IMG/VR virus record: IMGVR_UViG_3300005836_000009
Span: 1 to 47,300 of that record
Origin: a virus
Direction: 5' to 3' (one strand)
Length of the DNA stretch: 47,300 nt
The translations under genes were made by a program, and so were the position numbers. Positions within the stretch are counted from its first letter, which is position 1; each line of letters opens with the position of its first letter. Shown one piece after another: positions 2-33,443 of the stretch. The notes under the pieces were generated by a model. It was not told the DNA's origin, ran no database searches, and saw nothing but the letters and a program-made list of their open reading frames with translations.

Positions 2-136
2 GAAGCACGGCTTGGTCATGTTACTACAGCAATTGCATGGCCTGTTAATACGCCAGAAGATTGGAAGATTGGTTTTACAGTCGGGCGCGACTTAAATATA
101 TTCACAGATTTTTCACCAAATGAGGAGCTTGAATAA
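2..136 (+). CDS. C-terminal end of a GT2-like glycosyltransferase (partial)
   Basis: An open frame enters from the left edge and stops at TAA 134-136, giving the last 44 residues of a protein. The end reads like the C-terminus of the next gene: both have a Leu-Gly-His-(Val/Ile) stretch, a Trp-Pro a few residues later, then Gly-Phe-x-x-Gly-x-Asp-(Leu/Phe)-Asn. So it is very probably a paralogue of the GT-A type gene at 136-810, arranged in tandem. Its stop overlaps the ATG of that gene (TAATG), which suggests translational coupling. The catalytic part lies outside the window, so glycosyltransferase activity is inferred from the similarity only. Confidence 0.75.
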   Translation, partial: EARLGHVTTAIAWPVNTPEDWKIGFTVGRDLNIFTDFSPNEELE

Positions 137-810
137 TGTCAGGAATAATTGGAATTGCGGCTAATAGTACAGGACGCTATATAGCTTTCACTATTTGTAT
201 TACATCTCTAAGAGTTCCGCCCAATACTAGTATTCAGTGGGCAATTGGATCAGATAGAGTTGTTGGTCGCAATAAACTTGTTAAAGCAGCATTGGCATCG
301 GGAGCAGAATGGTTATTCTTCTTAGATGATGATCATGCATTTGAGCCTGATATTTTGCTGAGATTATTGGCTCATGAAAAACCTATTGTTGCTTCGCTTT
401 ATCTACAAAGAATTAAACCTTTCTCGCCAATAGCATATGAGTATTATGATGATGAAAATAGAACTTATACTTCGCTTGATTTAACTAAATATGAAAAGAA
501 TGCATTAGTTCCAATTGTTGCTGCTGGAACTGGCGGAATGTTAATTAGAAGTGAGGTATTTAGAGAACTTAAAGAACCTTGGTTTGAAGTGACTGAAGGA
601 ATAGGTTCTGAAGACTTACCGTTTTGCAAAAAGGCTCTTGAAGCCGGCTTTGAAATCTTTTGTGATTTAGGAACTCCATTAGGGCATATTGATCCTGTTA
701 TTATATGGCCTTCCTATTTTGATGAAGAAAAAGAATGGGGAGTAGGTTTTAATTTAGGGGATGATTTCAATCTTTATATTCCCGTAGAAAAGCCTATTTC
801 TAAAGAATAA
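136..810 (+). CDS. GT2-like (GT-A fold) glycosyltransferase
   Basis: This 224-residue protein has the layout of short phage GT-A enzymes that transfer a sugar from a nucleotide donor. An early GRN segment is followed by the metal-binding acidic motif FFLDDDHAFEPD near residue 65, then a hydrophobic VASLY strand. A later SEDLPFCKKALEAG segment fits the usual Glu-Asp acceptor-side motif. No membrane segment or signal peptide is visible, so it should act in the cytoplasm. The ATG overlaps the upstream stop, and GAGGAG about 8 bases before it serves as Shine-Dalgarno. Structural genes follow, so a virion protein is a plausible acceptor, but the acceptor cannot be read from sequence. Confidence 0.75.
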   Translation: MSGIIGIAANSTGRYIAFTICITSLRVPPNTSIQWAIGSDRVVGRNKLVKAALASGAEWLFFLDDDHAFEPDILLRLLAHEKPIVASLYLQRIKPFSPIAYEYYDDENRTYTSLDLTKYEKNALVPIVAAGTGGMLIRSEVFRELKEPWFEVTEGIGSEDLPFCKKALEAGFEIFCDLGTPLGHIDPVIIWPSYFDEEKEWGVGFNLGDDFNLYIPVEKPISKE

Positions 811-866: not shown

Positions 867-1382
867 ATGGCTGCAAAAACCTATGCTGTAACAAACGGTG
901 ACGCACCTGGAGCTGCTGCTCCTGTAGCAATTGCAACAGGCTCAGCAATTAGAACAATGCTTCAGCTAGCAACAAACACAACCACACCTTCAATTCGCGT
1001 TGTTGAGTGGTGGGCCGAGTTTGATGCTTCTGCTGCTGCTGTTCCGCTTAAGGTCGAACTTCTTCGACATACTGGTGGTCCTGCTACCACCCTTACTGCA
1101 TACACCGCTGCGATGATTGCTAAGGTAAACGATCCAAACGCATCTGCATCATCAATCCAGCTTGGTACTGCTCTATCAGGTTTCTCGAACACTACTGCTG
1201 AAGTGACGCCTACTACTGCTGTCTCTCTTGAGACTCATTATGTACCGCCAACTTCCGGCATCTATGTTCAGTTCCCTCTCGGAAGAGAGCCTGAAGTAGC
1301 TGTGTCAACGTTCCTGCGCATTAGAACCACACCATCTGGTACTGGTCCTAACTGTCTCGCAGGCGTTATGTGGGAAGAGTAA
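867..1382 (+). CDS. putative virion structural protein (alanine/threonine-rich)
   Basis: A 171-residue protein rich in Ala, Thr, Ser and Val and poor in charge, with no membrane segment or signal peptide. This composition is typical of phage head or tail surface proteins built of beta sandwiches. The ribosome site AAAGGAGGTT is nearly ideal, with 6 bases to ATG, so high expression is likely. It has its own possible promoter and 5' hairpin. A basic small gene and the long repeat gene follow, suggesting one operon of virion-surface parts. I do not recognise the family; structural role is inferred from composition, expression signals and position. Confidence 0.6.
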   Translation: MAAKTYAVTNGDAPGAAAPVAIATGSAIRTMLQLATNTTTPSIRVVEWWAEFDASAAAVPLKVELLRHTGGPATTLTAYTAAMIAKVNDPNASASSIQLGTALSGFSNTTAEVTPTTAVSLETHYVPPTSGIYVQFPLGREPEVAVSTFLRIRTTPSGTGPNCLAGVMWEE

Positions 1383-1402: not shown

Positions 1403-1678
1403 TTGTCTGCTCATTTTCGAGTAGCGTCTATGGACGCCACTAGAATAGCTCACAATCCTTATAGAACTAAAATTCTTAGGGAGCCTCTTCTCGCGCCAAA
1501 AATTACATTTAAAACACGAATTATCTCCAAAATAATCAGACTCAAAAACAAGACTATAAAAGTCTTAGCAACTTGGAAGAAGCCAACTGCTAGCCGTACA
1601 ATACGGCGCGTTGTTAAAAGATCTTCTGTCCAGGCCAAGAACAAGTCTGATCCTCACTTAGATAAGCGGGTCATTTAA
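1403..1678 (+). CDS. small basic protein of unknown function
   Basis: A 91-residue, strongly basic protein (many Lys and Arg, few acidic residues). AAGGAG at 1389-1394 sits 8 bases before a TTG at 1403, which decides the start; the first ATG is at 1430 and has no ribosome site. The stop TAA overlaps the ATG of the long repeat gene (TAATG at 1676-1680), so the two are probably coupled. The family is not recognised. Its basic character matches that of the repeat protein, so it may be an N-terminal partner, chaperone or anchor; this is a guess from position. Confidence 0.5.
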   Translation: MSAHFRVASMDATRIAHNPYRTKILREPLLAPKITFKTRIISKIIRLKNKTIKVLATWKKPTASRTIRRVVKRSSVQAKNKSDPHLDKRVI

Positions 1679-4600
1679 TGGCCCGCTTTCTAAGAGTTTC
1701 TGTTAATACTTATGCTGGCTCAAGGCCAGCACACTCGCGGCTTATGCCGCCGGTGGTCGTTGATCCTGCTTTAGTATTTATAGCACCTCCGATTGTAACG
1801 CAATTTACGGTTATGAAAAACCGTAACTTTAACCGCACTCGTTATCAGACACTAGTTCTTCCGCCTTATCCAGTTCTTATTAATCCTGCCACAGTTTGGT
1901 ATGGCCCTGGAGTTCGTCTTGCAAGTCCAGATATATCAAGAATTGGACCAAATAAACAGCAAAGACAGGTTACTGTTAGAGCTCCGTATCCAGTAGTTGT
2001 TTTTCCGCCAATTGCTTTCTCTGGGCCTAGAGTTAAACTTGTTCCATTACTTGGAAGAGTACCTAAAACTAGAAGCATACTTCGCAAGCCTATTGTAGTT
2101 GGATCGGTTGTAGTAACATTTATTGCTTCTCCAATTAGAGTTAAATTAGCCTATTCGCGCAGAGGAAGAGCTAAGAGTAGTCTTAAACCGCCAACAGTAA
2201 TTTCTAGTGCTATAACATTCCGCCCAATTGCAAAAAAACTTGTTGCTTCTCCAAAGCAAGGCAGAAAAACTAATTATAAGCTTAGAGCACCAGCAGTAAT
2301 TGGTGGAGCTACTGTATTTAGACCTCTAGAAGTTCAGCTTGCTTACTCTCGTAGAGGAAAGCCTAAGAGTAAGCTTTCGCCGCCAACAGTTATTTCTGGC
2401 GCAGTAATCTTTAGACCAATAGCAATTAAGCTTGCTCCTCAATCTAGAAGACGTGGTAAAGCAGAACTTAATCCACCAACTGTAGTTTCTGCTGCCGCTG
2501 CACCATTTATTGCTTCGCCAATTGAAGTAAAACTTGCTTATTCTCGCAGAGGAAGACCGCAATCTGTTCTTTCACATCCTGTTATTGTTGCCTTTGATTA
2601 TGGAACAGCAGAAGGTGGAATACTTGTTTCGCTTGCTCCTTCTAGACGCCCAATAACTAGATCTATTCTTAGAGTTCCTGTTGTAGTTGCTGCTGCTGCT
2701 ACACAAGTATTCTTTGGTCCTAAAACCAAGCTTGCTCTAAGTAAGAGAGGTAAGCCAACTAGTATTCTCCATTCACCAGCAGTTGTTTCAGGTGCAATTG
2801 TATTCAGACCTATTTCTACAAAACTTGCTTACTCTAAGCGCGGTAAGCCATTAAGCAGACTTGCTCCACCTGCAACAATTGCAAGTGCATTCGTTGCTAG
2901 ATCAATTGTAATTAAGCTTGCTCCTTCTAAGCGCGGAAAGCCAATTAGCAAGCTATTCTCTCCTACTGTAATAGGAGCAGCTATTGTCTTCCGTCCAATT
3001 GATGTTACATTTGCAGATGAAGCCAATGAAAATATTGCTCGAATAACTAAGCGAGCGCCTCACAGCAGACTTAAGCCTCCAACGGTAGTGGCAGGAGCAA
3101 TAGTCTTTAGACCTGTTTCTATTAAGCTTGTTGCTTCTCCGAGACTTGATCGTGTTTCTCACTTCAGACTTAAAACGCCTATCGTTGTTGCAAGCGCTAT
3201 TGAGTTCTTCGGGCCAAAGACCAAGCTTGCTCCTTCTAGACGTGGCAGACCAATTAGTGAACTTAGACCACCAACCGTAGTTGGTGCAGCAATTACATTC
3301 CGTCCTGTTGCAACAACCTTTGCTGTTGCTCCTGATGATGTTGGTCAGAAACTTTCGCGTAGAACGCCTCATTATAGACTTGCTCCTCCTGCTGTTACTG
3401 GTGCAGCAATTGTATTTGCTCCACTCAGAGTTGAACTTGCATACTCAAGACGTGGTAAGCCAACAAGCGAACTTAGACCTCCTGCGGTAGTTGCAGGAGC
3501 AATTGTATACGCTCCAATTTCAGTGAAGTTGACTCCATCAACACGCATTGATAGAACTTCACACTTTGAACTTAGACCGCCAGCAGTAGTTGGAGCAGCA
3601 ATTGTATTTGCTCCTGTTGATGTACATTTGGCTCCATCTAAGCGGGGTATTCCAAAGAGCAAGCTATTTGCTCCTGTTACTGTTGCTCCTCAGTTCTTCC
3701 AGCGTCCTGTTCAGATGCATCTTGCGTACTCACGCCGAGGTGTTCCTAAATCTAAGCTCAAGCCTCCAACAGTTATTTCTGGAGCAATCGTATTCAGACC
3801 AATTGATGTTGCATTTGCTTCACAGAAGCCTATTCAGATCAATACTAGTCGCGCAGTACACAGCGATCTTAAACCTCCTGCCGTTGTTGCAGGGGCAATT
3901 GTATTCCGCCCAATCTCAACTAAGCTCGTTGCTTCACCGCGACTTGACCGGGTTTCACACTTCCGCCTTGAATTCCCAATTGTTGTTGCAAGTGCGTTTG
4001 AATACTTCGGTCCACTCGTTAAATTGGCTCCATCTAAGAGAGGTAAGCCGTTCAGCAAGCTTAGACCACCAACAGTTGTCAGTGGAGCAGTTGTATTTAG
4101 ACCAATTGCAACGAAGCTCACTTACTCAAGACGTGGTAAGCCAAAGAGCAGACTATTTGCACCAACTGTAGTTTCTGGCGCAGTTGTATTTAGACCTGTT
4201 AAAACTACGTTTGCTGGCTCTCAGAAGCTCTCTCGCGCCCCTCATTCTAAACTTAGACCTCCTGCTAGGGTTAATGCAGCAATTGTCTTCGCTCCGCTTT
4301 CAATCAAGCTTGCACCTGCACCACGGCTTGATAGAGTCTCTCACTTCAGGCTCGAAACTCCGATTGTTATCTCGGCTGCTGTTGAATACTTCGGCCCAGT
4401 TATTAAGCTTGCACTATCGTCTAAGCTTGGAAGAATTCAACATTCTCGCTTGAAGCCACCGACAATTGTTGGCGTTGCAACAGCATTCCGTCCAATTGTA
4501 ACTAAGCTTGCTTCTTCAAGCAGACTTGCCAGAATTCCTCGCCATGTTCTTAGAGCTCCAGTAGTTATTGGTGCTGCATTTATTCCTAGACCAATTGTTG

Positions 4601-4860
4601 TAAGACTTGCTTCTTCTCATGGTGGAGTTACAACAAGCAAGCTATTTGCGCCAGCAGTTATTTCAGCAGAGTTCTTTGCTAGACCGCTTATAGTTAAGCT
4701 TGCTGCAAGTAGCAGAGGAGTACCAAAGAGTAAACTTGCGCCTCCTACTGTTGTTGAAGCTGCATTCTTTGCTAGACCAATCTCTGTAACAATTGCTAGA
4801 CAGAATCTTGTTCAAGATAGAATAACGCGCAGACAGGCTAGATTTGTTCTCGCGCCTCCT
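1678..4860 (+). repeat. coding tandem repeats, about 31 units of 93-117 bases
   Basis: Units keep the reading frame and differ by silent and conservative changes, so the array is old and under protein-level selection rather than a fresh satellite. The basic-loop length varies: the short form has SRRGKPxS, a longer form RLDRVSHF, and the longest forms 11-18 residues ending in (P/V)H(S/Y). Four-unit blocks are visible around units 13-16, 21-24 and 25-28. The first three units are more diverged than the rest. Confidence 0.85.
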
Positions 4861-5055
4861 GTTGTAACCTTTGCTGGAGCCAGAAAGGGTTATCACTCAA
4901 GAACTAAGATTAATTCACGAGAGAGTACGCTTGTGATTGTTCTCAATAAGCCAGAATTCAGAATGAATTCTAGAGAAAACGACACGTCAATAACTAAACG
5001 CGGTACTTCGCGTGATAGAATTAACGATAGAGAAAGTGATACGCATATATCATGA
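1678..5055 (+). CDS. giant basic tandem-repeat protein, probable virion fibre or surface protein
   Basis: This 1125-residue protein is almost entirely a tandem array. I count about 31 units of 31-39 residues. The common unit reads roughly L-(K/R)-P-P-(T/A)-V-V-x-(G/A)-A-I-V-F-R-P-I-x-x-K-L, then a basic loop of the type S-(R/K)-R-G-K-P-x-S. Each unit looks like two short beta strands (a PPTVV strand and an FRPIxxKL strand) joined by an Arg/Lys loop, so an elongated beta-solenoid or beads-on-string fibre is plausible. Units with RLDR(V/T)SHF recur every fourth unit (units 14, 18, 22, 26), showing a higher-order repeat of about 130 residues. The last 60 residues change to short N-S/D-R-E-containing motifs. 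Neighbours are tail or appendage genes and glycosyltransferases. The function is not known; I place it on the virion by context. Confidence 0.7.
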   Translation: MARFLRVSVNTYAGSRPAHSRLMPPVVVDPALVFIAPPIVTQFTVMKNRNFNRTRYQTLVLPPYPVLINPATVWYGPGVRLASPDISRIGPNKQQRQVTVRAPYPVVVFPPIAFSGPRVKLVPLLGRVPKTRSILRKPIVVGSVVVTFIASPIRVKLAYSRRGRAKSSLKPPTVISSAITFRPIAKKLVASPKQGRKTNYKLRAPAVIGGATVFRPLEVQLAYSRRGKPKSKLSPPTVISGAVIFRPIAIKLAPQSRRRGKAELNPPTVVSAAAAPFIASPIEVKLAYSRRGRPQSVLSHPVIVAFDYGTAEGGILVSLAPSRRPITRSILRVPVVVAAAATQVFFGPKTKLALSKRGKPTSILHSPAVVSGAIVFRPISTKLAYSKRGKPLSRLAPPATIASAFVARSIVIKLAPSKRGKPISKLFSPTVIGAAIVFRPIDVTFADEANENIARITKRAPHSRLKPPTVVAGAIVFRPVSIKLVASPRLDRVSHFRLKTPIVVASAIEFFGPKTKLAPSRRGRPISELRPPTVVGAAITFRPVATTFAVAPDDVGQKLSRRTPHYRLAPPAVTGAAIVFAPLRVELAYSRRGKPTSELRPPAVVAGAIVYAPISVKLTPSTRIDRTSHFELRPPAVVGAAIVFAPVDVHLAPSKRGIPKSKLFAPVTVAPQFFQRPVQMHLAYSRRGVPKSKLKPPTVISGAIVFRPIDVAFASQKPIQINTSRAVHSDLKPPAVVAGAIVFRPISTKLVASPRLDRVSHFRLEFPIVVASAFEYFGPLVKLAPSKRGKPFSKLRPPTVVSGAVVFRPIATKLTYSRRGKPKSRLFAPTVVSGAVVFRPVKTTFAGSQKLSRAPHSKLRPPARVNAAIVFAPLSIKLAPAPRLDRVSHFRLETPIVISAAVEYFGPVIKLALSSKLGRIQHSRLKPPTIVGVATAFRPIVTKLASSSRLARIPRHVLRAPVVIGAAFIPRPIVVRLASSHGGVTTSKLFAPAVISAEFFARPLIVKLAASSRGVPKSKLAPPTVVEAAFFARPISVTIARQNLVQDRITRRQARFVLAPPVVTFAGARKGYHSRTKINSRESTLVIVLNKPEFRMNSRENDTSITKRGTSRDRINDRESDTHIS

Positions 5056-5339
5056 GATACCCTACATTTTTTGAAGACGCCGATGTTATATTTCGTATAA
5101 CATTCTATGAAGATGAAACAAAAACGACACCAATTGATCCATTGAGTGTTATTTTTACTGTAGAAGCTCCTGACGGAACTGTATATACACCTACAGTTTT
5201 TGATGATCCAGGCACAGGTAAGTTCTCTTCTGATCATATATTTGATGTTTATGGAGATTGGCAATGGCATTGGCAAACAGAAAACCCGCGAATTATTGAT
5301 CAAGGAATTATTACTATAGTTCCAAGGAATGTGCCTTAA
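5052..5339 (+). CDS. small virion-associated protein, beta-rich
   Basis: A 95-residue acidic protein with alternating hydrophobic strands, a central PDGTVYTP turn, and a Trp-rich DWQWHWQTENP segment near the end. It looks like a compact Ig-like or jelly-roll domain as found in tail accessory proteins, with no signal peptide. The ATG overlaps the stop of the repeat gene (ATGA), and its own stop overlaps the next ATG, so it sits in a tightly coupled row. The acidic charge next to a very basic repeat protein could mean the two bind each other; that is inference only. Confidence 0.55.
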   Translation: MRYPTFFEDADVIFRITFYEDETKTTPIDPLSVIFTVEAPDGTVYTPTVFDDPGTGKFSSDHIFDVYGDWQWHWQTENPRIIDQGIITIVPRNVP

Positions 5340-5971
5340 TGCCATTAATGCCAACTACTATAATTTCTACTAGTCCTATTTATCCAACAGGACTAGTAGT
5401 TATATCAGATACAACTCTTCAAGCCGACGCCGCGAACTTTGATGTACAGAGCATTCCGTCGATGTACAAGCACTTGCGAATAGAGGCCCAGTTGCGAGGG
5501 ACCACCGCAGCAACTACGCAGCAGGCTCGCATCCGCTTCAACAACGATTCGGGTGGAAACTACTACTGGTTCTCGGTTACCGAGTACATAGGTGGCCCTG
5601 CCGCGAACGAGGGCAATGGAGAAACGTCCGCATGGGCAGGAGTTGCTGCGGCCGCCTCGGCTACTGCCACTCTGACGGGAACGCTCGGTATCGACATCCC
5701 TAACTATGCGGCCACAACGTTTGCGAAGCAGTTTCGGGGGAGCAGCGAATACTGCACTGCTGCGAGTTCGACAAACACCAGGGTAGAGGATGCAGTGGGC
5801 CTTTGGAACAGCACAGCAGCAATCGAACGCATCACCCTCTACCCACTGGCCGATAGCTTCAAAGCAGGCTCCCGCCTTACTATTTATGGCATGGGCGGTG
5901 TTCCATCAGCAGAAGCAATTGCCAACGTACAACTTACATCTAATCTACTCAACTATATATTTACGAGGTGA
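5339..5971 (+). CDS. tail or appendage protein, G+C-rich and probably recently acquired
   Basis: A 210-residue protein of a type common among phage tail-fibre proteins: a core with YKHLRIEAQLRG, an RIRFNND segment followed by GGNYYW, and a C-terminal ERITLYPLADSFKAGSRLTIYG block, which suggests a beta-sandwich appendage domain. The start ATG overlaps the previous stop. By direct count, 5401-5880 is about 57 percent G+C against about 40 percent around it, while the first 20 and last 30 codons look like the rest of the phage. So the central domain appears to have been swapped in from a G+C-richer relative, as happens in receptor-binding genes. The exact ligand is unknown. Confidence 0.65.
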   Translation: MPLMPTTIISTSPIYPTGLVVISDTTLQADAANFDVQSIPSMYKHLRIEAQLRGTTAATTQQARIRFNNDSGGNYYWFSVTEYIGGPAANEGNGETSAWAGVAAAASATATLTGTLGIDIPNYAATTFAKQFRGSSEYCTAASSTNTRVEDAVGLWNSTAAIERITLYPLADSFKAGSRLTIYGMGGVPSAEAIANVQLTSNLLNYIFTR

Positions 5972-5974
5972 ATT

Positions 5975-6367
5975 ATGGCGACTAGTCCTATTTTTGCATC
6001 TACACCAGTTTTAGGTTTTGCATCAGTTACGGCTGCTAACACCAACCGCGACGGTACAGGAACAATTGTAGATATAGTTACTTCAGGATCTTCTGGTACT
6101 CGCATTGATGAAATTGTTCTACAAGCGACTGGCAATCCTGCCGATTCAACAGTAACTATCTACATTCATGATGGCTCAAGTTATCGGCTTTTTGATGAAT
6201 TTGATATTGGCGATCCTGCCGCTGCTTCCACAACCCTTGCAGGTTATCGAGCAAGTCGCAGTTATACTAATCTTGTCTTGCCAACTGGATATAAGCTTGC
6301 AGCCGCAATTACTGTTGCGCTTACATCAGGAGCTATTAATGTTTTTGCACATGGAGCTAATTTTTAA
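5975..6367 (+). CDS. putative tail or virion protein (beta-sandwich type)
   Basis: A 130-residue protein with an Ala/Thr/Gly-rich beta pattern, including RIDEIVLQATGNPADSTVTI and a later SYTNLVLPTGYKLAAAITV segment. Similar short proteins occur beside tail fibres in many siphoviruses and usually form trimeric or oligomeric decorations. The ribosome site GAGGTGA overlaps the stop of the preceding gene, and the stop directly abuts the ATG of the lectin-like gene. The N-terminal MATSPIFASTPVLGFASV is shared in style with other structural proteins. No enzyme motif is visible; structural role is inferred. Confidence 0.6.
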   Translation: MATSPIFASTPVLGFASVTAANTNRDGTGTIVDIVTSGSSGTRIDEIVLQATGNPADSTVTIYIHDGSSYRLFDEFDIGDPAAASTTLAGYRASRSYTNLVLPTGYKLAAAITVALTSGAINVFAHGANF

Positions 6368-7156
6368 ATGAATAAAGGTTTACTTGGATACCCAAGAGGT
6401 AATGCACTATCTACTTCACTTTGGGGATTCCCTCTGGGGGAATCTGTAGATGAAAATAATCGTTTCCCAATTGCAGAGAATATGACTGCATGGTGGGATT
6501 TTTCCAATATTGGAGATATGACATTAGTAGATCTAGGGAATAGCACTTATGGTATATCAGCTATAGTTGATAGAAGTGGGAATGGATGGACATTGAGCCA
6601 AGGTACTTCAGGGTCAAGACCGACTTATGGTAGTCGCATGCTAAATAATATTTATGTTCCTTATTTTGATGGTGGAGATTCTTTAGGAAACAACTCTTTG
6701 GAGTTTGGTTGCCCATCATCTACTCCGCTGACAGTCTATGTGCCCACAGTGTTTGATTCCCTTGGGTCCTATATGGCTCCTGTTGCTGGCAACGGCAATG
6801 CTCTGGAGTTTCGCAAGGATACTGCGGATAATTTCAATGTGGTTCGCAACTCCGATGGAAATGGATCATTTCCGACGTTGCCTGTCATCCAGGCTGGTAA
6901 GCCGTACTTCCTCTGCGTGAGAGTCGCGAGCGACGGAACTACGGGAACGCTTAGGGTTGGACAACGAGCTATAGCTGGTGGCCCATTCTCTATCGCATCT
7001 CCTAGTGCTGGAATCGCACTAGGTTCTCGCGTTAGCGGGGGGATTCCAATTACAGGCGTTATTCCTGAGTGTCTTATATATGCGGCCGAACACACAGATG
7101 CTCAGATTGATTTTATGTATAGCAACTATCTTCGGCCAAAATGGGGTCTAGCGTAA
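6368..7156 (+). CDS. lectin-fold (LamG/concanavalin-like) tail protein
   Basis: A 262-residue protein. After about 38 residues it shows the typical start of phage LamG-like domains, AWWDFSNI, followed by a DRSGNGW segment. It ends with the usual C-terminal pattern GVIPECLIYAAEHTDAQID and a Pro-Lys-Trp-Gly tail. Such domains bind sugars and occur at tail tips or fibres. The central part (6721-6960) counts to about 53 percent G+C, higher than its flanks, which suggests exchange of the binding face. It lies in a coupled row with the two genes before it. Carbohydrate binding is the family expectation; the specific sugar is unknown. Confidence 0.7.
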   Translation: MNKGLLGYPRGNALSTSLWGFPLGESVDENNRFPIAENMTAWWDFSNIGDMTLVDLGNSTYGISAIVDRSGNGWTLSQGTSGSRPTYGSRMLNNIYVPYFDGGDSLGNNSLEFGCPSSTPLTVYVPTVFDSLGSYMAPVAGNGNALEFRKDTADNFNVVRNSDGNGSFPTLPVIQAGKPYFLCVRVASDGTTGTLRVGQRAIAGGPFSIASPSAGIALGSRVSGGIPITGVIPECLIYAAEHTDAQIDFMYSNYLRPKWGLA

Positions 7157-7203: not shown

Positions 7204-7320
7204 ATGTTAATTCCTTCTCCTACAGTAATACAAGCAGCTAGCGAATGGACTACTATCACGAAAACAATTAGTCAATCAATAAATACTCAGACATATGCCT
7301 TCTATACAACGCATTCTTAG
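7204..7320 (+). CDS. 38-residue hypothetical protein
   Basis: A short frame starts at ATG 7204, with GGGGA at 7193-7197 as a usable ribosome site. It encodes 38 residues rich in Thr, Ser and Ile and ends at TAG 7318-7320. It overlaps the start of the zinc-ribbon gene at 7295 by 26 bases in another frame, a common phage arrangement. It has no Cys, no membrane segment and no recognisable motif. The polar Thr/Ser-rich composition resembles the other appendage proteins here, so it could be a small tail accessory. Confidence 0.35.
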   Translation: MLIPSPTVIQAASEWTTITKTISQSINTQTYAFYTTHS

Positions 7321-7588
7321 AGAAGTTACTTGCCCTCGTTGTAATGCTATAGCTCAAGAACGGTTAGAAGACAAAGATAAGTTCGTTCTGATATACTTAT
7401 GGTGTGATAAATGCAAACTAACAAGAAATATGGGGCTGACAACAAGAAAGGCGTTAAGACTAAAAAAACGTCAGACAAGATTGCGAGACTCGCTAAATCA
7501 GGCAAAAAGTCAGCGCGACCGAAGTAGAATTTTGAAGCAACTAGAATTGCTTGATAGACAAATTCATCAAGCAGAAATTGGAATCTAA
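7295..7588 (+). CDS. zinc-ribbon and coiled-coil small protein
   Basis: A 97-residue protein. Residues 12-40 hold CPRC and CDKC spaced as in a four-cysteine zinc ribbon. The C-terminal half is highly charged with many Arg, Lys, Gln and Leu and should form a basic helix or coiled coil. This fits a nucleic-acid-binding accessory or regulator. Its stop lies 10 bases before the TTG start of the glycosyltransferase, whose ribosome site overlaps the end of this gene. No clear Shine-Dalgarno precedes its own ATG, so it may depend on coupling from the upstream small frame. The exact role is unknown. Confidence 0.6.
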   Translation: MPSIQRILREVTCPRCNAIAQERLEDKDKFVLIYLWCDKCKLTRNMGLTTRKALRLKKRQTRLRDSLNQAKSQRDRSRILKQLELLDRQIHQAEIGI

Positions 7589-7598
7589 GGGAGCCATA

Positions 7599-8741
7599 TT
7601 GAGAATAGCAAATATATTAATTAGTGATGTGTGGGGCGATGTAACGCCGGAAGCATTAAATAGGGGAATCGGTGGTAGAGAAGGAGCTATGATCTATCTT
7701 TCCCGCGAATGGGCAAAGATGGGCCATGAAGTTACTAACTTCGTTAATATAGAAGAGAGTAGTAGGTTTGTTGAACCCTTAAATGAGGAAGATAACTCTT
7801 GGCAATATCAAGGGTTAAATATGAATGGCTATCACGAATATGTACCTTTAAATCTAACTCGTCCCATGCTTGCTAATTTCCCTTGGGATGTAGCTATTGC
7901 TTGGGAATGTCCTAGCACTTTTGAAGATCCACGCATTCTTGAAAATATTAAATTAAAGATTTGCGAAATGCAGGTTTGCCATCTATCTATTCGAGAAACT
8001 GAAGCCGCAAGAAAATATTGTGACTATGTTGCAACATTATCACAGTGGCATAAGAATTTTATGTTACATCAGGGGCTTGAAATGGATGAAGACAAAGTTA
8101 TAGTCCTTCCAAACGGTGTAGATATAACTAAATACCCTGAACCTGAATATGGAAGAAAGTTCGACCGGGCTCCACGTTTTGTCTATTCTTCTTCGCCAGA
8201 TAGAGGATTATGGCCGCTTTTAAAGACTTGGACCAAGGTTAGAGAAGATTTTGCTGAAGCAGAATTACTTGTAGGATATGGAGTTAAGAAATGGACCGAC
8301 CAGAATAGATGGTCGCATGGCCGACAAGGAGAAATGGCTGTAGAAATTGAACAATTAATGAAACAATCTGGCGTTAAAGATATAGGGAAGATCGGGCAAG
8401 ATGCTTTAGCTCGGCTTCAAATAAATGCTGATGCCTGGATCTATCCTCTTGATGCGATGAACTCAACAGAGTCAGGTTGTATTACTGCTGTAGAGAATGC
8501 TGCTGCTGGCAATCCTATAATTACTACAGATTGTGATTGTATGGCTACAGAATTTGGTAGTATCGGTCGAATAGTTGATATGCCCTTTGAAGAAGAGCTA
8601 TTCTATGATGCTGTCAAAGACGTATTAACAGATGATGAGTATTATACTAACTTACAACGAAAGGGACGAAAATTTGCCGAATCTAGAGACTGGTCAAAAA
8701 TTGCTAATCAGTGGACAGATTTATTTAGACAACGTGTTTGA
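7599..8741 (+). CDS. GT4-type (GT-B fold) glycosyltransferase
   Basis: This 380-residue enzyme should move a sugar from a nucleotide donor to an unknown acceptor. TTG at 7599, preceded by AAGGGAG, is the best start because the protein then begins MRIANILISDVWG, a normal first strand; the frame is open further upstream but lacks a ribosome site. An N-terminal GGREGAMIYLSREWAKMG segment matches the acceptor lobe. The donor lobe has a YSSSPDRGLWPLL segment and the E-x7-E motif ESGCITAVENAAAG. The donor lobe is clearly related to that of the fused enzyme at 37407-39719, so the two are paralogues. It ends in a 17-base convergent overlap with the minus-strand gene. Confidence 0.85.
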   Translation: MRIANILISDVWGDVTPEALNRGIGGREGAMIYLSREWAKMGHEVTNFVNIEESSRFVEPLNEEDNSWQYQGLNMNGYHEYVPLNLTRPMLANFPWDVAIAWECPSTFEDPRILENIKLKICEMQVCHLSIRETEAARKYCDYVATLSQWHKNFMLHQGLEMDEDKVIVLPNGVDITKYPEPEYGRKFDRAPRFVYSSSPDRGLWPLLKTWTKVREDFAEAELLVGYGVKKWTDQNRWSHGRQGEMAVEIEQLMKQSGVKDIGKIGQDALARLQINADAWIYPLDAMNSTESGCITAVENAAAGNPIITTDCDCMATEFGSIGRIVDMPFEEELFYDAVKDVLTDDEYYTNLQRKGRKFAESRDWSKIANQWTDLFRQRV

Positions 8742-9213
8742 GAAGCTTGCGGTCAGTTTTAAATCTTTGTTTCTGAGCCGTCGAAACTAATTGTCTTAAA
8801 TAAAGTCTCTCTTCATAAGAGAGATGTTTAAGACCGTTTCGTTGGCTCTTTATATTCTTTGGACCAATACTAATTTTCTCTTTTGGAATTTCCGAATGAG
8901 CTCGGAAGATATTTAAGAATGTTTTCTTATATATTCTTTTCCTTTTACCATTAGTCAAGTCTTTTATATATTCAACATTAAGATTAGTATCTTTAGATAC
9001 TTCACTAATATTTTTTGTCTCTAATAATTTATTTAGTAGAGGAACAAAAACATCTGCCGGAATAGTTGTAGAATTGGCCAAGGAGCGACAAGTCTTACAT
9101 CTTGATAATGGCTTGCCTTCCCTTGGCCCTGTTTTATTAACAGTAAATTCTGTAATCGGAACTAAAGCTCCGCCGGGGGGATGAAATTGCCCTCGACAAA
9201 GCTTACTCTCCAT
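8725..9213 (-). CDS. zinc-binding and helix-turn-helix-like DNA-binding protein
   Basis: A 162-residue basic protein. The N-terminal 45 residues contain a Cys, a His and a later RCKTC pair, a variant of the phage C-x2-C...CKxC zinc finger with the first pair altered to Cys-x4-His. The middle (SEVSKDTNLNVEYIKDLTNG) resembles the recognition region of an XRE-type helix-turn-helix. So it is probably a regulator or DNA-associated factor. Its ATG lies 8 bases inside the end of the upstream gene, so it is the last gene of a five-gene minus-strand unit. It is too cysteine-poor for WhiB. Target unknown. Confidence 0.55.
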   Translation of the reverse strand: MESKLCRGQFHPPGGALVPITEFTVNKTGPREGKPLSRCKTCRSLANSTTIPADVFVPLLNKLLETKNISEVSKDTNLNVEYIKDLTNGKRKRIYKKTFLNIFRAHSEIPKEKISIGPKNIKSQRNGLKHLSYEERLYLRQLVSTAQKQRFKTDRKLLKHVV

Positions 9214-9700
9214 TGGCCTCTTCCCACAAAACTAATGCTATAAGAGCATAGTTTGCTAGATCAAGAAATGAATCTCTTACAGATTCATTTTCTAGTGTTC
9301 CTGTTTTTGCATAACGCTTGATACGAACCATTTTGTCATTGCCCCTATTTATTGCACTCTTCCAAGGTTCAATACCAAATTCTTCCCCTTCACGTACATT
9401 CATAAATGGATCTTCAAATGATCCATAATCTGCTCCTTTGGCATGATGAAGCTTTTTGACTTCTGCTAAAGCGTCATAGAATTTTTGTGTAAGAGGGTGT
9501 AATGCAGCGGTTGTCATTGACAATACTGCCGCTCTTACTGTTTTATCTATATTTCTTATAACTTCTTTATCGTCTTCAACTGTACCGCCTTCATTCTCAA
9601 AAGATTCTTGTCCTTCATCTTTCGGAAATAAATTACTAATACTAAGTTTTGACACTAACACTCCGTTTCTTAAGTTTTTGTCGCATACTATGGTTTCCAA
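9203..9700 (-). CDS. DUF1599 / Nmad1-like (nucleotide modification associated) protein
   Basis: The C-terminal 90 residues match the phage DUF1599 family, also named nucleotide modification associated domain 1: KKLHHAKGADYGSFEDPF, then NRGNDKMVRIKRYAKTG, then SFLDLANYALIALVLWEE. The pattern is alpha-helical and MazG-like. The family is linked by neighbourhood to phages with altered bases or to nucleotide pool control; its chemistry is not settled. The longest frame starts at TTG 9700 without a ribosome site; a GTG at 9655 has GGAG 5 bases before it and may be the true start (150 residues). It sits beside a DnaQ-like exonuclease, consistent with DNA metabolism. Confidence 0.7.
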   Translation of the reverse strand: METIVCDKNLRNGVLVSKLSISNLFPKDEGQESFENEGGTVEDDKEVIRNIDKTVRAAVLSMTTAALHPLTQKFYDALAEVKKLHHAKGADYGSFEDPFMNVREGEEFGIEPWKSAINRGNDKMVRIKRYAKTGTLENESVRDSFLDLANYALIALVLWEEANGE

Positions 9701-10841: not shown

Positions 10842-10889
10842 TAATGTTTATAATACTAAATGTAATCGTAACCGCACGACACAGTTTGT
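10842..10889. promoter_or_regulatory. divergent promoter region
   Basis: The 48-base gap separates the minus-strand unit from the plus-strand head operon, so it must hold promoters for both unless transcription reads through. On the plus strand TATAAT is at 10849-10854. On the minus strand TATTAT reads from 10855 to 10850. The two -10 candidates overlap, so the promoters would compete. No good -35 was seen for either. Confidence 0.5.
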
Positions 10890-11123
10890 ATGAGAGAAAA
10901 ATCAAAACTTATTAATGGTAGAAACATGACTTGTCCTCGCTGCAAAAAACAGCATGACATTCTTCAGTATACCCGTATGGTAGAGAGTCCCGAATTTCAA
11001 CACGAAACAACTCCCATATATAAGTGTCCCTCCTGTAAGTGGTTATTTGCACCAGCCGACAATTTAATTTTCGAGGTACTCAGTGAGAGACTAAAGCTCA
11101 TTGAAATCCCTGAAAGTGAGTAA
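10890..11123 (+). CDS. small zinc-ribbon protein
   Basis: A 77-residue protein with CPRC at residues 15-18 and CPSC about 30 residues later, followed by a short hydrophobic stretch; this is a four-cysteine zinc ribbon. It is the first gene of the late head operon and ends only 5 bases before the protease gene. No ribosome site precedes ATG 10890 or the internal ATG at 10926. Zinc ribbons at this place could act in late gene control or in head assembly; I cannot tell which. Confidence 0.55.
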   Translation: MREKSKLINGRNMTCPRCKKQHDILQYTRMVESPEFQHETTPIYKCPSCKWLFAPADNLIFEVLSERLKLIEIPESE

Positions 11124-11128
11124 TTTGC

Positions 11129-12985
11129 ATGTCAGAGAATATTAGCACAGAAGAGCTAGATCTGCAAGAGATTGAAGAATATCTTAACGTAGCCTTCTCA
11201 AATGGTTTCTCCAAGGGGACAGCCAATGTTTCCCCGCATGATATGAAGAAGCTTGCTCCTCTGCTCAAGCATTACGGAAAGATGGCTCATCCATTTCGAG
11301 CCTGTGTTAGAGATAATAGAAAAAGATTTGGTCCTTTAACTGAAAAATATTGTGCGGTATTAAAAGATCTTATAAAAGGAACCACCTCTTGGCGCTCAAC
11401 AGAGCGCAAAAAGAATCTTTCTGAAGTCGAAATGAATGAATTTGTTCTCCACTGGGAAGACTATCCAGATAATTATATAGATGAATTCGTTGAAAGTCTA
11501 GCAAATTTGACAGAAGAAGATGTTAAACTACTGTTAAGTAATGATGATAATGAGGAAAATATGACAGAAGTTGATTTGGCAGCAGGAGATGTAGCGTGGT
11601 CTTCTGATGGTGGCTGGAACGATATTCGCAGCCAGCTTGAAAATGAACTCAATGATCAGTCGCAAATGGGCGGCATGGATTATTGGGTAGTTGATGTTAA
11701 AGGCAATGAGGCTTTAGTTTGCGAAAAAGGTTCAGATTATTATGTTGTACCGTTTTCGGTTGACAAGAAGGGTGAAACTACTTTAAGCCAAGAATCAGAT
11801 TGGAAGCCAGTCGAAAAAGCTTGGGTAGAAAGCAATGTTAATATGAGTGATTTTTCAGAATTTGTAGCAGAACTTTACTTCACCGATAACAAGGGTAACG
11901 CTGCTGATAGTGATGGCCTTGTTTGGAAGACCTTTATGCGCGAAGGCACTTGGAAGTTTTCGCCTGGAAGCGGAAAGGTCGTTCCTAAGCCTCTTACAAT
12001 TGTGAAGAGTGGCAAGTCAGATCCTCAGAAACTTGTTATTTCAATGGCTGATATTAAAAAGAATTTTGAAACTGGAGCAATTCAGCACGTTACTGTTCCG
12101 CTAAGCCATGAAGATAAGGTCAATGAGAATACTGGTTTTGTGAAGAAGATGCGCTTTGGCAAAGATGATAAGGGTCGCACGACTCTTGAAGCGGCTATTG
12201 ATTTCACTGAACCAGATATTAAGGAAAAAATTGATCGCGGTACTATTCCAAATGTAAGTGGAGGAGTCCACTTCAACTATATTGACAAAGAATCAGGGAA
12301 AAAGTTTACTTCCGTTCTCGGGCACTTGGCATTAACGCCTAAGCCTTGGCTCGGCGGAATGGCTCCCTTTGGTGTAAAAACTTCTGAGAACCTAAACGTA
12401 GTCGGATTTTCAGAAGAACCGCAAACAACCTCAGACCTAGACATAGAAGGAGGTGTAGAGGAAACAATGACTACTATAGTCGAACAGACATTCGATGAAA
12501 CGACAGATGACAATGCCGATACTTTCCTTCAGGAGCTAGGGCTTTCTGAGGACGAGGTTAAGGCTAGACTTTCTCGCTATGATGAACTAGAGCAGGAAGC
12601 TAAGGCCAACAGAATTGATCAGAAGGTGCGTGATTGGGAAGGCGAGAAGAAGTCGCCAGCTCTTATTGCCGCAGCTAAGGATATTCTGATGGCAGACGAA
12701 GGTGCAGCAGTTCTGAATCTCTCGGAAGAGGGCAAGGAAGTTGCGCTTACCGCATCTGACATTGTAGAGCGTCTTGTTGAGGCTGCTCCTACTGTTGCTC
12801 TTGCTGATGATCCTATCACAGACAAGGATGCAGAAGGAACCGCCCCACCGGATGACGCAACAGAGGAAAATCTTTCAGACGATATTAAGTCTGAAGCTCG
12901 TAGACTTTTCCTTTATGAAAGATATTCAGAGGATGACGCAATTGCCGAGGCAGTTCGTCGTTCTGAAGAAAAGACAACCGCGTAA
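11129..12985 (+). CDS. capsid maturation protease fused to scaffold
   Basis: A 618-residue protein in three parts. Residues 1-90 hold a helical segment with KHYGKMAHPFRACVRDN, common at the start of actinophage prohead proteases. The middle (about 270-420) is the protease: VTVPLSHEDK, ending in the expected His region, and GTIPNVSGGVHF with the candidate nucleophile Ser, as in the Mu gpI-type head proteases. The last 150 residues are acidic and helical, typical of scaffold. It cleaves the scaffold and often the capsid protein inside the prohead. A decoration and a capsid gene follow directly, as expected. Active residues are inferred by motif position. Confidence 0.8.
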   Translation: MSENISTEELDLQEIEEYLNVAFSNGFSKGTANVSPHDMKKLAPLLKHYGKMAHPFRACVRDNRKRFGPLTEKYCAVLKDLIKGTTSWRSTERKKNLSEVEMNEFVLHWEDYPDNYIDEFVESLANLTEEDVKLLLSNDDNEENMTEVDLAAGDVAWSSDGGWNDIRSQLENELNDQSQMGGMDYWVVDVKGNEALVCEKGSDYYVVPFSVDKKGETTLSQESDWKPVEKAWVESNVNMSDFSEFVAELYFTDNKGNAADSDGLVWKTFMREGTWKFSPGSGKVVPKPLTIVKSGKSDPQKLVISMADIKKNFETGAIQHVTVPLSHEDKVNENTGFVKKMRFGKDDKGRTTLEAAIDFTEPDIKEKIDRGTIPNVSGGVHFNYIDKESGKKFTSVLGHLALTPKPWLGGMAPFGVKTSENLNVVGFSEEPQTTSDLDIEGGVEETMTTIVEQTFDETTDDNADTFLQELGLSEDEVKARLSRYDELEQEAKANRIDQKVRDWEGEKKSPALIAAAKDILMADEGAAVLNLSEEGKEVALTASDIVERLVEAAPTVALADDPITDKDAEGTAPPDDATEENLSDDIKSEARRLFLYERYSEDDAIAEAVRRSEEKTTA

Positions 12986-25443: not shown

Positions 25444-28400
25444 ATGCCTCCGGTTAATGACAATCTCGCTAATGCGAGAGTAATTACTGCCAATATTTCT
25501 TATACTGGAGAAACCACTGTAGGAGCAACTAATGAAGGCTCACCTTCAACTCCAGGAGATGAAGCCTACGATTATGATGATGTTGCTGTTTGGTATCGTC
25601 TAGAGTGGGGAGCTACTGGTAAATGGCGCGTTAAAGTCACTAACGCTACTAACATATTTTACCCAAGCTATAATTCGTATAGTAGCTACGGCAGTAGATT
25701 ATATAACCTTACAACAGACCCCCCTAGCGATATTGGCGATCTTTCTGGAGTATATGAAGATACTCCTCGCTCTCCATATACTAGTCAAGGATATATAGGT
25801 GGCAATGATACAAGTCAAACGGCTGAACATACTGCTGGAACTGTATATTATATTAGATTTGGTGCAGCTCAATCAAACGGGTATCCATATACTCAATGGA
25901 CAGGAACTTATGATATTGAATTTGAGTTTATTACAGCTCCTTATAACCCTGGCTCTCCTGCTGCAAATGATGATATGTCTACCGCTCAATTGCTTGCTAT
26001 ACCTAGTGGGTCAATAGCAGGAACAACGCATGGAGCGCCTACTGATGTGGGTAGTGCTTGGTATAGATGGGAACCCGCTGTAGATGTAGTTTTAAAGATA
26101 ACAATAGAAGGAACAGAAAATAATGGCTGGATGCCGTATGGGGATATGTATCATTTGGACGGTGCTGATCCACCAACAAGTTATGCAGATTTGAGTAACG
26201 ATGGCTGGTATCAGTATCTAGGAGATAAAGATCCTAATACCGGAATGCCTTTAAATCCTGGCTATGCTTCATTCGCATTACAAGGCGGCGAAGTATATCT
26301 TATGGAAGTATATGATAACGATTATATTTTCAATAGTGATTTTACAATTCAGACACAATCTGGCTTAGAGCCTTCAAATGATAGAATCGAAAATGCTACA
26401 GTCATTAGCCCATCAACTAGATGGCCGCAAGTTATTAATAGCACCACTGTTAATGGCTCACAAGATTATGATGAAGTAATTAATTGGGACGGATCAATGA
26501 CGCCTTCAGTATGGTATATCCTTGATAATCAAGGACCGGGGGCAATGAACTTAAAAATAGAATCTCTCACTGATGGTTGGGATGTTATGTTTGAAACATA
26601 TTATAAAACTTCTGATCATACTCAGATGGGAGTTACTGGGATGGATCAATTAACTCAGGATGGATTCAGAACAACAAAAGACACACACTTAGGTTATTTA
26701 GATCTATCTAACTATGCGATGTATTATGGATTCGAAACAAACAATCCCGCTTCAAGCGATTACGCTTGGGACCCTTTGGTGGGCGGTGAAAAATTCTATA
26801 TCAGAGTTATAGGATATAACGGCGATGGTCAATATGATGCAGGAAGCTTTAGACTAACAGCTTTTGTTGCTCCACCAGCAGTTTGTCTTGATGCTATTGA
26901 TTATCTTAATCCAGATTCAACTACAGCGTCTATTGTTAGTGGAAATGTTAGAGAGACTCAATTTATACCGGAGGATCAGGGAGGCGTGGCTCCTCACACT
27001 CCGAAGCATTATTCAGGATGGTTGGATGAACAAGTTGCAACATTGATTATTCCGGGGGAAGATATAGCTGATAGCCCCGGACTCTACTCCGTTACTATCA
27101 AGTATAAAAACTCTACCTATGCCTATCAATGGGTGGCGGGATTCAGGCGTAATGGGCAGCCGCTAGAACCGGGAGCAGAGATGAATGCTACCCCTGATTC
27201 TACAGAGTGGATGACAATGATGGCTGGAGCTCCAAATCCAAACGAAATAGATATGCTTAGATTCTTGCCTGTACAGCCCGGAGATGAAATTCAAGTGGTT
27301 GTTTCATATAACGATTATGATAATTCCCCGACTGACCACATGGACGTATATCAAGTTTGTTTCCAGAGAATGCTTGAAGCAGTAGAAGCTCCTGCATATT
27401 CACAGCTTACTATTCCTGATTATCCTATGGGAACAACGTCGAGCGACATGGGAACAAATGATCAGCAGGGCGACTTGATGATCTACAAGGACGTAGCTCC
27501 GACCTACACAAGTCACAGGTCCACGAACGCCGACCTCGTGGTGACAGACGATGGAGTGCTGTGGTGCTTGGCTTCGTGGTCATGTGATGGATTCTCAGGC
27601 AGTCGAATCGGGCCTGTGCTCCAGAAGTGGGACCCGTCATCACCGGGATGGCAGATCGTGAACGATGATATTGGCGGGTTCGGTGTGAAGAGAGCTTATG
27701 GTGCTACCCACGACAACATGAATGGCTGGACATTATCTATTGATACTGACGGTGAAGATATTTGGGTTTGTTACAGCGTTGATGGTGGACAAAACTTTTT
27801 GCCGGATACCACTAGCTATTCGACGCATATCAAAGTACGAAAATATGATGTTAGCGGTAACTCATGGAGCGATGTAGGTAGCCCGTTCCATGGAAGTCGC
27901 AGCGATGTGGGTAGCACAAAACCGGGAGAGAATGCTATAGCTGTGGCTGGAGACTGGGGAGAGACTCCTATTATTCGTGTCTCTCCTGCTGGTGTACCTT
28001 GGGTTGTTTTTACTGATGCTTATTGTCCCGCTTCTTCTCCAGAAGATTTTGGTTTCTGGCAAATGCGTCATTATGTTGCGCGGTGGACAGGATCAACCTG
28101 GGACGTACAAGTTCTTCCAGGGCCATATGAATCTGATGATGATTATACTGTTCATAAAGTACAGGCAGAAAGCTGCTCATTAGGAGCTACTGCAAGCTCA
28201 ACAACATATTTAGGTGTATCTTGCGTTGAAGATACACAAACAACATTTGCTACTGACACAATTAGTTTTACACCAGCAGCAGGAAAGTGGTGTTTTAAAG
28301 GAAGACTAGCTTTGGATTATGTGTCTGGCGGTAGTTGTGGAATTGAAGTAGAGATGCGGAAAAATGGTAATATTGTTCCATTCGCTGGTGGCTTATTTTG

Positions 28401-29640
28401 GTACATTGCTTTGCGAAGCACAGATATGGATTGGACAAGAACATATAGATTTAACGAGCTATATGTTGATTGCAATGGATCTGATGTAATATCTATTAGA
28501 ATGAGAGTTACAGGAACAGGAGTATGTCATGCATATCTAGATGAAATTGTCTATATAGATGCTCATCGAGTAGAAGAGAATAAAGGTTTTGGTTTTAATG
28601 CTAGATTCAGTGATGATGGTCAGCCACAAGGTATGTTATACATGCATAAAATAGAAGATGTGGGTTTAGGAGAAAATCCCGGTGTTCTTTATATGACTGC
28701 TTATACACGTCCATTCCTTACTATCGCAGAGAGAAATGCCGCTACTCCTCCTTTGGGTTGGGCTTCTATGGAAGCGCTTGATGATGCTACTGTTGGAACT
28801 GACAGCATGGTTCTTCCACCAGAAACAGATGGAAATTATTTATGGAATTGGCAGACATGGATATATTCAGAGTGGGACGGTTCACAATGGGTAAAAAAAT
28901 GGGATCAACTCATTGAAGAGAATGCAAGGAATCATGTCTATGTTAAAACTGCATACGATTCAATCGCCTCAACTCCACCTCTAGGCCATGCTCAACAAGG
29001 TTTTGGTGGTTGCACAGATGGTATAAATAATTACATGACAGCCAACCTCTTTGGTGGGCAGGCTTTTGGTTTCTTTGGCGATACTATCGTTGCTCTAAAA
29101 ATTGGAGCGGAAGGGTTTGAACCATTTACTGACGGACCACCAGGGGCACTACAGGGGCCAGGCTATCCACAAGGAACTGTGTTTGGGCTTAGTGGGTTTA
29201 GTGGTTGGAGTTGGGATTCTGGTGGAAGGAGTATTCATGTTGATGTTAATGAGAATGCTTGGTTGGCATGGAATGGTACCGAGGGAGCAACGTTTAATTA
29301 TTCTGACTTCGTTGCTGTAGCGGCAAATAATAATATGACAACTCAGTTAGCCGGTTTGTCAGGTTGGTATGCCGCAGCAGATGAAAATGAATCATTAGGA
29401 CAAGATAATGCTTATATGCCCATTGGTCATGTGGTATCTTCTCCGAATGGAGACACGGTATACATCCTATTTGATACGTATATTTGGAGTGACGGCACAG
29501 GAGCCGCAGAACCATATACATTTGGTGTTTATGAATGCCCCGTTTTGCCAGATAATAAAATACCATTAATTCCAGTTTTTCTTGGAGCAGTAGATTTTAC
29601 TAGAATTAAGTTTCGCAGCTTCCAAAGAGGCGATGCTTAA
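25444..29640 (+). CDS. large modular tail protein, receptor-binding candidate
   Basis: A 1398-residue protein at the end of the tail operon. Residues 1-475 hold three related modules that start with a (N/S)-(D)-(N/R)-x-x-(N/E)-A motif and contain a later VWYRLE or AWYRWE strand, like PPC-type (bacterial pre-peptidase C-terminal) beta sandwiches. Residues about 650-900 and 1045-1380 look like beta-propeller blades with Trp- and Asp-rich turns. A Cys-containing jelly-roll-like domain (about 905-1040) seems inserted between them. The last 17 residues match the small gene at 24980. Bases 27421-27660 count to about 56 percent G+C, unlike the rest, so part of the propeller was probably exchanged. 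Sugar binding or cleavage is plausible but no catalytic set was identified. Confidence 0.65.
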   Translation: MPPVNDNLANARVITANISYTGETTVGATNEGSPSTPGDEAYDYDDVAVWYRLEWGATGKWRVKVTNATNIFYPSYNSYSSYGSRLYNLTTDPPSDIGDLSGVYEDTPRSPYTSQGYIGGNDTSQTAEHTAGTVYYIRFGAAQSNGYPYTQWTGTYDIEFEFITAPYNPGSPAANDDMSTAQLLAIPSGSIAGTTHGAPTDVGSAWYRWEPAVDVVLKITIEGTENNGWMPYGDMYHLDGADPPTSYADLSNDGWYQYLGDKDPNTGMPLNPGYASFALQGGEVYLMEVYDNDYIFNSDFTIQTQSGLEPSNDRIENATVISPSTRWPQVINSTTVNGSQDYDEVINWDGSMTPSVWYILDNQGPGAMNLKIESLTDGWDVMFETYYKTSDHTQMGVTGMDQLTQDGFRTTKDTHLGYLDLSNYAMYYGFETNNPASSDYAWDPLVGGEKFYIRVIGYNGDGQYDAGSFRLTAFVAPPAVCLDAIDYLNPDSTTASIVSGNVRETQFIPEDQGGVAPHTPKHYSGWLDEQVATLIIPGEDIADSPGLYSVTIKYKNSTYAYQWVAGFRRNGQPLEPGAEMNATPDSTEWMTMMAGAPNPNEIDMLRFLPVQPGDEIQVVVSYNDYDNSPTDHMDVYQVCFQRMLEAVEAPAYSQLTIPDYPMGTTSSDMGTNDQQGDLMIYKDVAPTYTSHRSTNADLVVTDDGVLWCLASWSCDGFSGSRIGPVLQKWDPSSPGWQIVNDDIGGFGVKRAYGATHDNMNGWTLSIDTDGEDIWVCYSVDGGQNFLPDTTSYSTHIKVRKYDVSGNSWSDVGSPFHGSRSDVGSTKPGENAIAVAGDWGETPIIRVSPAGVPWVVFTDAYCPASSPEDFGFWQMRHYVARWTGSTWDVQVLPGPYESDDDYTVHKVQAESCSLGATASSTTYLGVSCVEDTQTTFATDTISFTPAAGKWCFKGRLALDYVSGGSCGIEVEMRKNGNIVPFAGGLFWYIALRSTDMDWTRTYRFNELYVDCNGSDVISIRMRVTGTGVCHAYLDEIVYIDAHRVEENKGFGFNARFSDDGQPQGMLYMHKIEDVGLGENPGVLYMTAYTRPFLTIAERNAATPPLGWASMEALDDATVGTDSMVLPPETDGNYLWNWQTWIYSEWDGSQWVKKWDQLIEENARNHVYVKTAYDSIASTPPLGHAQQGFGGCTDGINNYMTANLFGGQAFGFFGDTIVALKIGAEGFEPFTDGPPGALQGPGYPQGTVFGLSGFSGWSWDSGGRSIHVDVNENAWLAWNGTEGATFNYSDFVAVAANNNMTTQLAGLSGWYAAADENESLGQDNAYMPIGHVVSSPNGDTVYILFDTYIWSDGTGAAEPYTFGVYECPVLPDNKIPLIPVFLGAVDFTRIKFRSFQRGDA

Positions 29641-30262: not shown

Positions 30263-30460
30263 ATGCTAAAGCAAGAAGAAGAAGTAAAAGGAATGTATCG
30301 AGCGTACATTGAACTTTGGGCTTGTAAAAATACAAATACACAAAGAGAAAAAGATATATTACATGGGGCTATTTTAGCTTATGGCCGCGTCCTTGGATTT
30401 AATGCTGTTAAAGTCTACAAGGATATGGAAATGGCTAAGAATAAATATATTACGATATAA
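30263..30460 (+). CDS. 65-residue hypothetical protein
   Basis: Begins at the base after the stop of the lysozyme-like gene. The protein is helical, with a Glu/Lys-rich start and AYGRVLGFN in the second half, one Cys and no membrane segment. An internal ATG at 30293 is an alternative start. It ends by overlapping the convergent minus-strand gene by 11 bases, so it closes the plus-strand late block. Function unknown. Confidence 0.45.
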   Translation: MLKQEEEVKGMYRAYIELWACKNTNTQREKDILHGAILAYGRVLGFNAVKVYKDMEMAKNKYITI

Positions 30461-32830: not shown

Positions 32831-32835
32831 GAGAT

Positions 32836-32863
32836 AGGAAGGGCACCGGCAAATGCCCTTCTT
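32836..32863 (-). terminator. hairpin between collagen-like and glycosyltransferase genes
   Basis: The arms 32836-32845 and 32854-32863 pair over 10 positions (one G-T) around an 8-base loop. There is no T-run after it on the minus strand, so it would be a terminator without U-tail, as is common in actinobacteria, or an attenuator that covers the start region of the gene at 32830. Confidence 0.5.
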
Positions 32864-32872
32864 GTTTCCTTT

Positions 32873-33430: not shown

Positions 33431-33443
33431 TTATTCTCCTTAT

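Follow-up and report, generated by a model that had tools for sequence, protein, structure and literature searches.

The repeat gene at positions 1678..5055 (+) of the window, i.e. of the 47,300 bases of the linear record of an uncultivated virus that was analysed (IMG/VR record IMGVR_UViG_3300005836_000009, positions 1-47,300), lies at a locus where, judged by sequence, the C-terminal tail and the partner gene are conserved and the repeat body in front of them is interchangeable. In two relatives, the same C-terminal tail and the same downstream partner accompany a non-homologous repeat body, which argues for such an exchange. The record belongs to a tailed phage, as indicated by capsid, tape measure, portal, terminase and DnaB genes. 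Its capsid protein is ~25% identical to those of Gordonia and Arthrobacter phages. With the capsid as query for the host, one bacterial phylum (396 genomes) gave four weak matches and another (287 genomes) gave none.

An old protein repeat with a basic unit

The frame at 1678-5055 (+) is open throughout, without internal stops, and encodes a protein of 1125 aa with a net charge of +145 and a pI of 11.97 (185 K/R versus 40 D/E). Proline makes up 11% and serine 9% of its residues. An HMM built from 28 units recovers these 28 at 28-57 bits each (residues 135-1056; 2080..4845 (+)), together with four weak terminal units, three of them degenerate units at the N-terminus and one a partial unit at the C-terminal end of the array. 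The N-terminal part (residues 1-134; 1678..2079 (+)) contains about three degenerate units and is without a homologue in the relatives, whose N-terminus differs. The original prediction of about 31 basic repeats in a 1125-residue protein is confirmed by this count of 28 HMM-significant units plus three degenerate N-terminal ones and a partial last one.

Unit lengths range from 31 to 39 aa (n = 28), with 31 aa in 12 units, 33-34 aa in another 12 and 37 or 39 aa in the remaining 4. The unit reads L-x-P-P-x-V-V-x-G-A-x-V-F-R-P-I-x-x-K-L-A and continues into a basic loop of variable length (SRRGKPxS, RLDRVSHF or longer). Its hydrophobic columns are conserved at ~75-100% over the 28 units. The loop half is basic, with a net charge of +3.5 per unit versus +0.9 for the hydrophobic strand half. 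All 28 of the 28 units have a net charge between +1 and +8 (mean +4.4), and stretches of up to 132 residues are free of D/E. In a charge-hydropathy analysis, the repeats are classed as folded and the C-terminal tail as disordered, the latter of which suits a flexible docking tail.

No sequence match to the basic unit was found in phage, viral, genome, PDB, Pfam, PHROGs, NCBIfam or PADLOC searches. Relatives were found neither by tblastn in phages nor by back-translated scans of viral and genome collections, for which both the entire protein and alignments of its units served as queries. A PDB profile search with the unit returned nothing, and the same holds for a unit profile against 396 bacterial genomes of one phylum; run on the source record as positive control, this profile does recover the array. 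A DNA pattern of three spaced units, which matches the source record twice where no match is expected, occurs at 26 loci elsewhere in the viral and genome collections, all of which failed the unit HMM. For the protein as a whole, no known family of fibre or virion proteins was matched in phage, PHROG and Pfam-type searches. Matches to PHROGs 23223, 37699 and 24704 cover 19-34 residues, disappeared when searched more closely and were rejected as chance, and a Pfam TetR_C_3 match (E 0.09) was dismissed. The unit had been suspected to lie outside the known repeat families, and a profile search against structure and virus databases had been proposed as a check. In the collections searched, this suspicion is borne out, and no known fold was matched by sequence.

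AlphaFold2 models of five units (20 rows) and of eight units (6 rows) are both all-beta, with pLDDT values of 42.6 and 46.7, respectively, and in the best part of the latter the strand set recurs every 31 residues. The pLDDT is below 50 over most of both models. AlphaFold2 favours beta-solenoids for repeats (PMC11795689), and because of this bias only the term 'beta' is taken from the models, with the predicted fold being of low confidence. The best Foldseek E-values for a low-confidence model were 0.056 in BFVD and 0.92 in PDB, and these matches were dismissed as meaningless. The sequence pattern and the all-beta character of both low-confidence models agree with the expected beta repeats. 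Since neither model reached useful confidence, the protein may or may not have the suggested new fibre architecture.

A four-unit super-repeat had likewise been put forward. The motif R[LI]DR[VT]SHF is carried by units 11, 15, 19 and 23 (protein residues 465, 599, 731 and 859; unit starts at 3070, 3472, 3868 and 4252), with a spacing of exactly four units. These were units 14, 18, 22 and 26 in the earlier numbering, the offset being due to the three degenerate N-terminal units counted there. By hand count, the chance that four marked units among 28 form any arithmetic progression is 117/20475 = 0.006. Within units 11-26 (3070..4641 (+)), the lag-4 unit identity is 0.46 versus 0.39 for shuffled order, with a p-value of 0.008 that is generous as this range was picked after the data had been seen. 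Over all 28 units, the lag-4 identity is 0.40 versus 0.37 (p = 0.07). The super-repeat is therefore supported as a local feature of the middle of the protein and not as a global one. The loops ahead of the RLDR-type units, which had been described as often ending in PHS or PHY, agree in part. PHS precedes two of the four (units 11 and 23), whereas VHS is found ahead of unit 19 and neither form ahead of unit 15, and PHY precedes another unit type.

A recent duplication behind the four-unit rhythm was ruled out, as the synonymous codon match of the RLDR-type units is 0.50 versus ~0.42 by chance. A DNA satellite or an assembly artefact was also ruled out, since the DNA copies of the units are only ~60-75% identical and Tandem Repeats Finder did not flag the array. 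The array is a repeat at the protein level. Between units, the same codon is used at 47% of matching residues versus 42% expected from codon usage, and synonymous sites are near saturation. Units 11 and 19, for example, share 30 of 33 residues (91%), with the same codon at 40% of the shared residues versus ~42% by chance. Given this near-saturation, the repeats are old, and their sequence has been held by protein-level selection over a long time. Avoidance of recombining DNA-level repeats may also contribute and is inseparable from protein selection here.

Genomic context of the repeat gene

Upstream of the repeat gene, a 171-aa protein (867..1382 (+)) without family match in PHROG/Pfam-type searches is part of the same gene run. 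It is followed by a small basic ORF (91 aa, +20; 1403..1678 (+)) with a TTG start behind AAGGAGAGAGG and a stop codon that overlaps the ATG of the repeat gene (TAATG). This ORF and the repeat gene are probably translationally coupled. The idea that the ORF is a diverged repeat unit is unsupported by the unit HMM. Downstream, the ATG of an acidic partner (95 aa, pI 4.2; 5052..5339 (+)) overlaps the TGA of the repeat gene (ATGA). A fold as a small beta sandwich is probable for this partner, which is conserved in relatives. Three further proteins (5339-5971, 5975-6367 and 6368-7156, all (+)) are without counterpart in the relatives, and the last of these, which belongs to the run of the repeat gene, matches PHROG 10356 'virion structural protein' (E 1.3e-7). 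Since every gene junction within 1403-5339 is an overlap of the type TAATG or ATGA, and two more genes follow at distances of 0-3 bases, the whole looks like one co-translated run. A small Cys-rich protein (7295-7588 (+)) and a glycosyltransferase (7551-8741 (+); Pfam Glycos_transf_1), 55-71% and 57-73% identical in relatives, respectively, form the conserved right border of a variable island. Judged by the PHROG 10356 match and by variable surface-type genes in relatives, the neighbourhood of the repeat gene is a module of virion-surface type. It is located upstream of the head genes and away from the tail-tip genes, and is therefore compatible with tail, head or non-virion use.

Several other genes of the phage deserve mention. 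Glycosyltransferase-like genes, together with two genes that are methyltransferase-like by eye, are found at 7551-8741 (+), 30450-34241 (-), 37407-39719 (-) and 136-810 (+), all within one 47-kb phage, and the gene at 7551 has relatives in ten viral contigs. A papain-type (C1) cysteine peptidase (34238-35086 (-); PHROG 16701) adjoins the glycosyltransferases. A collagen-like protein with GPAGPAG repeats and a signal-peptide-like start is encoded by the phage at 32873-33430 (-) and looks secreted. A very acidic protein of 1398 aa (25444-29640 (+); net charge -106, pI 4.2) follows the tail genes, and its weak match in relative L019 is confined to the N-terminal repeats. An ORF of 74 aa at 35098-35322 (-) is extremely acidic (net charge -25).

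Exchange of the repeat body in relatives

Relatives of the phage were collected by their capsid proteins, which are 56-92% identical. The corresponding locus is reached in two of them, IMGVR_UViG_3300025325_000973 (37.8 kb) and IMGVR_UViG_3300002124_000010 (44.4 kb), with capsids 76% and 82% identical. In both, the homologue of the partner gene is immediately preceded by a gene for another kind of repeat protein, which is built from 20-aa QVLETDLAQ units. This ETDLAQ protein consists of ~20 units of 20-22 aa (QVLETDLAQAFxxRKTKxLD) and belongs to PHROG 14065, for which no function is assigned. Its net charge is -2 over 464 residues and, in IMGVR_UViG_3300002124_000010, where it is cut by the contig end, -2 over a fragment of 317 residues. 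In relative L015, the ETDLAQ repeat protein (PHROG 14065) is encoded at 10882-12264 of the reverse complement. The alignment of the basic with the ETDLAQ repeats scores 37, compared to a shuffle mean of 38, i.e. the bodies show no homology, and PHROG 14065 has no match in the source record.

The C-terminal tail (4885..5052 (+)), composed of KGYxSRxxINSxES and subsequent degenerate NSREN/INDRES repeats, is common to the repeat protein and the ETDLAQ proteins of the two relatives. It reads RKGYHSRTKINSRES in the source phage and IKGYASRAIINSIES and IKGYASRGIINSIES in the two relatives. The local scores of 47 and 54 lie above the shuffle maxima of 42 and 40, with 0 of 2000 shuffles reaching the scores, and in the viral collection a degenerate DNA pattern of the tail matches those two relative contigs only. 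The partner is 48-55% identical in three relatives and directly follows the repeat gene in the 2 in which this is visible; the third contig (L005) starts at the partner, so the repeat body lies outside of it. The tail is present in three genomes only, and the swap rests on two relatives. In the relatives, the partner gene directly precedes the homologue of the gene at 7295, the genes at 5339-7156 are absent, and the genes at 136-1678 have no counterpart. The island to the left of the conserved glycosyltransferase is hypervariable and holds Ig-, LamG- or beta-helix-like surface proteins (labels by eye) in more distant relatives. Surface-type proteins that relatives encode at the same island (L015 reverse complement 8069-9490; L030 2896-4416; L032 5129-6982) have signal-peptide-like N-termini, which are unusual for virion parts.

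The basic and the ETDLAQ proteins thus share their genomic position, the C-terminal tail, the downstream partner, an all-repeat body and near-saturated synonymous sites (fourfold sites in the case of ETDLAQ). They differ in unit length (31 versus 20 aa), in their N-terminus and in charge (+145 versus neutral), as well as in the non-homologous bodies. The conserved tail, the conserved partner and the swap, which the original sequence-only reading could not reveal, are the features that say most about the locus. Since the occupant is neutral in two relatives, the common role of the locus needs no basic body, and the basic charge is most likely a lineage-specific property of this body and not of the locus.

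Possible roles of the repeat protein

With modest confidence, the protein is best explained as an elongated beta-structured arm that serves as shaft or adhesin on the virion surface, in the form of a tail-side or a head fibre, and that has a docking tail and an exchangeable body. This explanation builds on the repeats and the selection acting on them, on the common tail and partner, on the non-homologous body at the same site and on the tight gene run. Located on the virion, the repeats would form a rod, and the loop of each unit, carrying most of the charge, would face outward to give an Arg/Lys ladder along it. The ladder would hold acidic host-surface polymers loosely and reversibly, with specific receptor binding left to other proteins. 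Such loose holding is perhaps the most natural use of a basic ladder. Docking would most likely take place at the C-terminal tail together with the co-encoded 95-aa partner, and exchange between phages would affect the repeat body ahead of the tail. Counted against an arm are the low confidence of the models, the position of the module upstream of the head genes and, as known phage fibres usually dock by their N-terminus, the fact that the C-terminus alone is conserved.

It is conceivable, if rather doubtful, that the basic ladder is itself the function and that the protein is a low-specificity binder of polyanions (teichoic acid, acidic capsule or LPS) by which phage particles accumulate on the host. 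This would overlap with the arm, the charge rather than the shaft being the point, and the neutral version in the relatives would then serve hosts with other surfaces. The positive charge of every unit and the long acid-free stretches agree with a polyanion binder, and the fact that variation at the locus lies in the body would fit an adaptation to the host. However, the neutral occupant in the relatives indicates that the locus does not require basic charge, and acidic proteins of the phage, such as those at 5052-5339 and 25444-29640, are equally possible partners for the charge. A structural part of the particle whose charge holds such acidic proteins, as an assembly glue that does not touch the host, would account for the strongly acidic proteins in the same genome, including the directly coupled partner. 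This is unlikely, since the partner is kept where the body is neutral, so that the conserved tail is a better site for the partner contact than the basic body.

A tether that is intrinsically disordered and rich in proline and arginine would be in line with the Pro and Ser content and with the low pLDDT over most of both models, but is improbable given the conserved hydrophobic positions over 28 units and the charge-hydropathy result, which classes the repeats as folded. A pI of 12 and the many Arg/Lys residues are also what a nucleic-acid-binding or DNA-condensing phage protein, intracellular or packed with the genome, would have. The run of surface-type genes, the hydrophobic strand pattern and the neutral replacement in the relatives make this very improbable.

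For an arm on the virion surface, the closest analogy would be the repeat-shaft fibres of tailed phages and adenovirus, which have triple beta-spiral or beta-solenoid shafts. The likeness is that a long array of short, putatively beta-structured repeats is followed by an end piece of another kind, and the difference is a basic unit without sequence match or confident structural match. Actinophage minor tail proteins with beta-repeat stalks, such as gp29 of Mycobacterium phage Indlovu, also have short beta-type segments before a C-terminal domain. The tblastn resemblance of gp29 is weak and to the ETDLAQ type only (E 0.5), and is a lead rather than a result; gp29 is unlike the basic unit, and its Gly-rich C-terminal domain is absent from the repeat protein.

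Phages are known to swap entire fibre genes as well as receptor-binding tips. Here, it appears to be the repeat body itself that is exchanged, between two unrelated repeat types of different charge, and the end tail and the partner are kept. Tentatively, the protein may represent a fibre built from a basic beta unit of 31 residues that has not been described before and whose loops follow a four-unit rhythm, set on a conserved tail and partner that take unrelated shafts of either basic 31-mers or neutral 20-mers. Without relatives in any collection searched, the repeat unit is a candidate new fold. If the tail and the partner are the dock, they would constitute a small module of natural origin on which unrelated shafts can be mounted.
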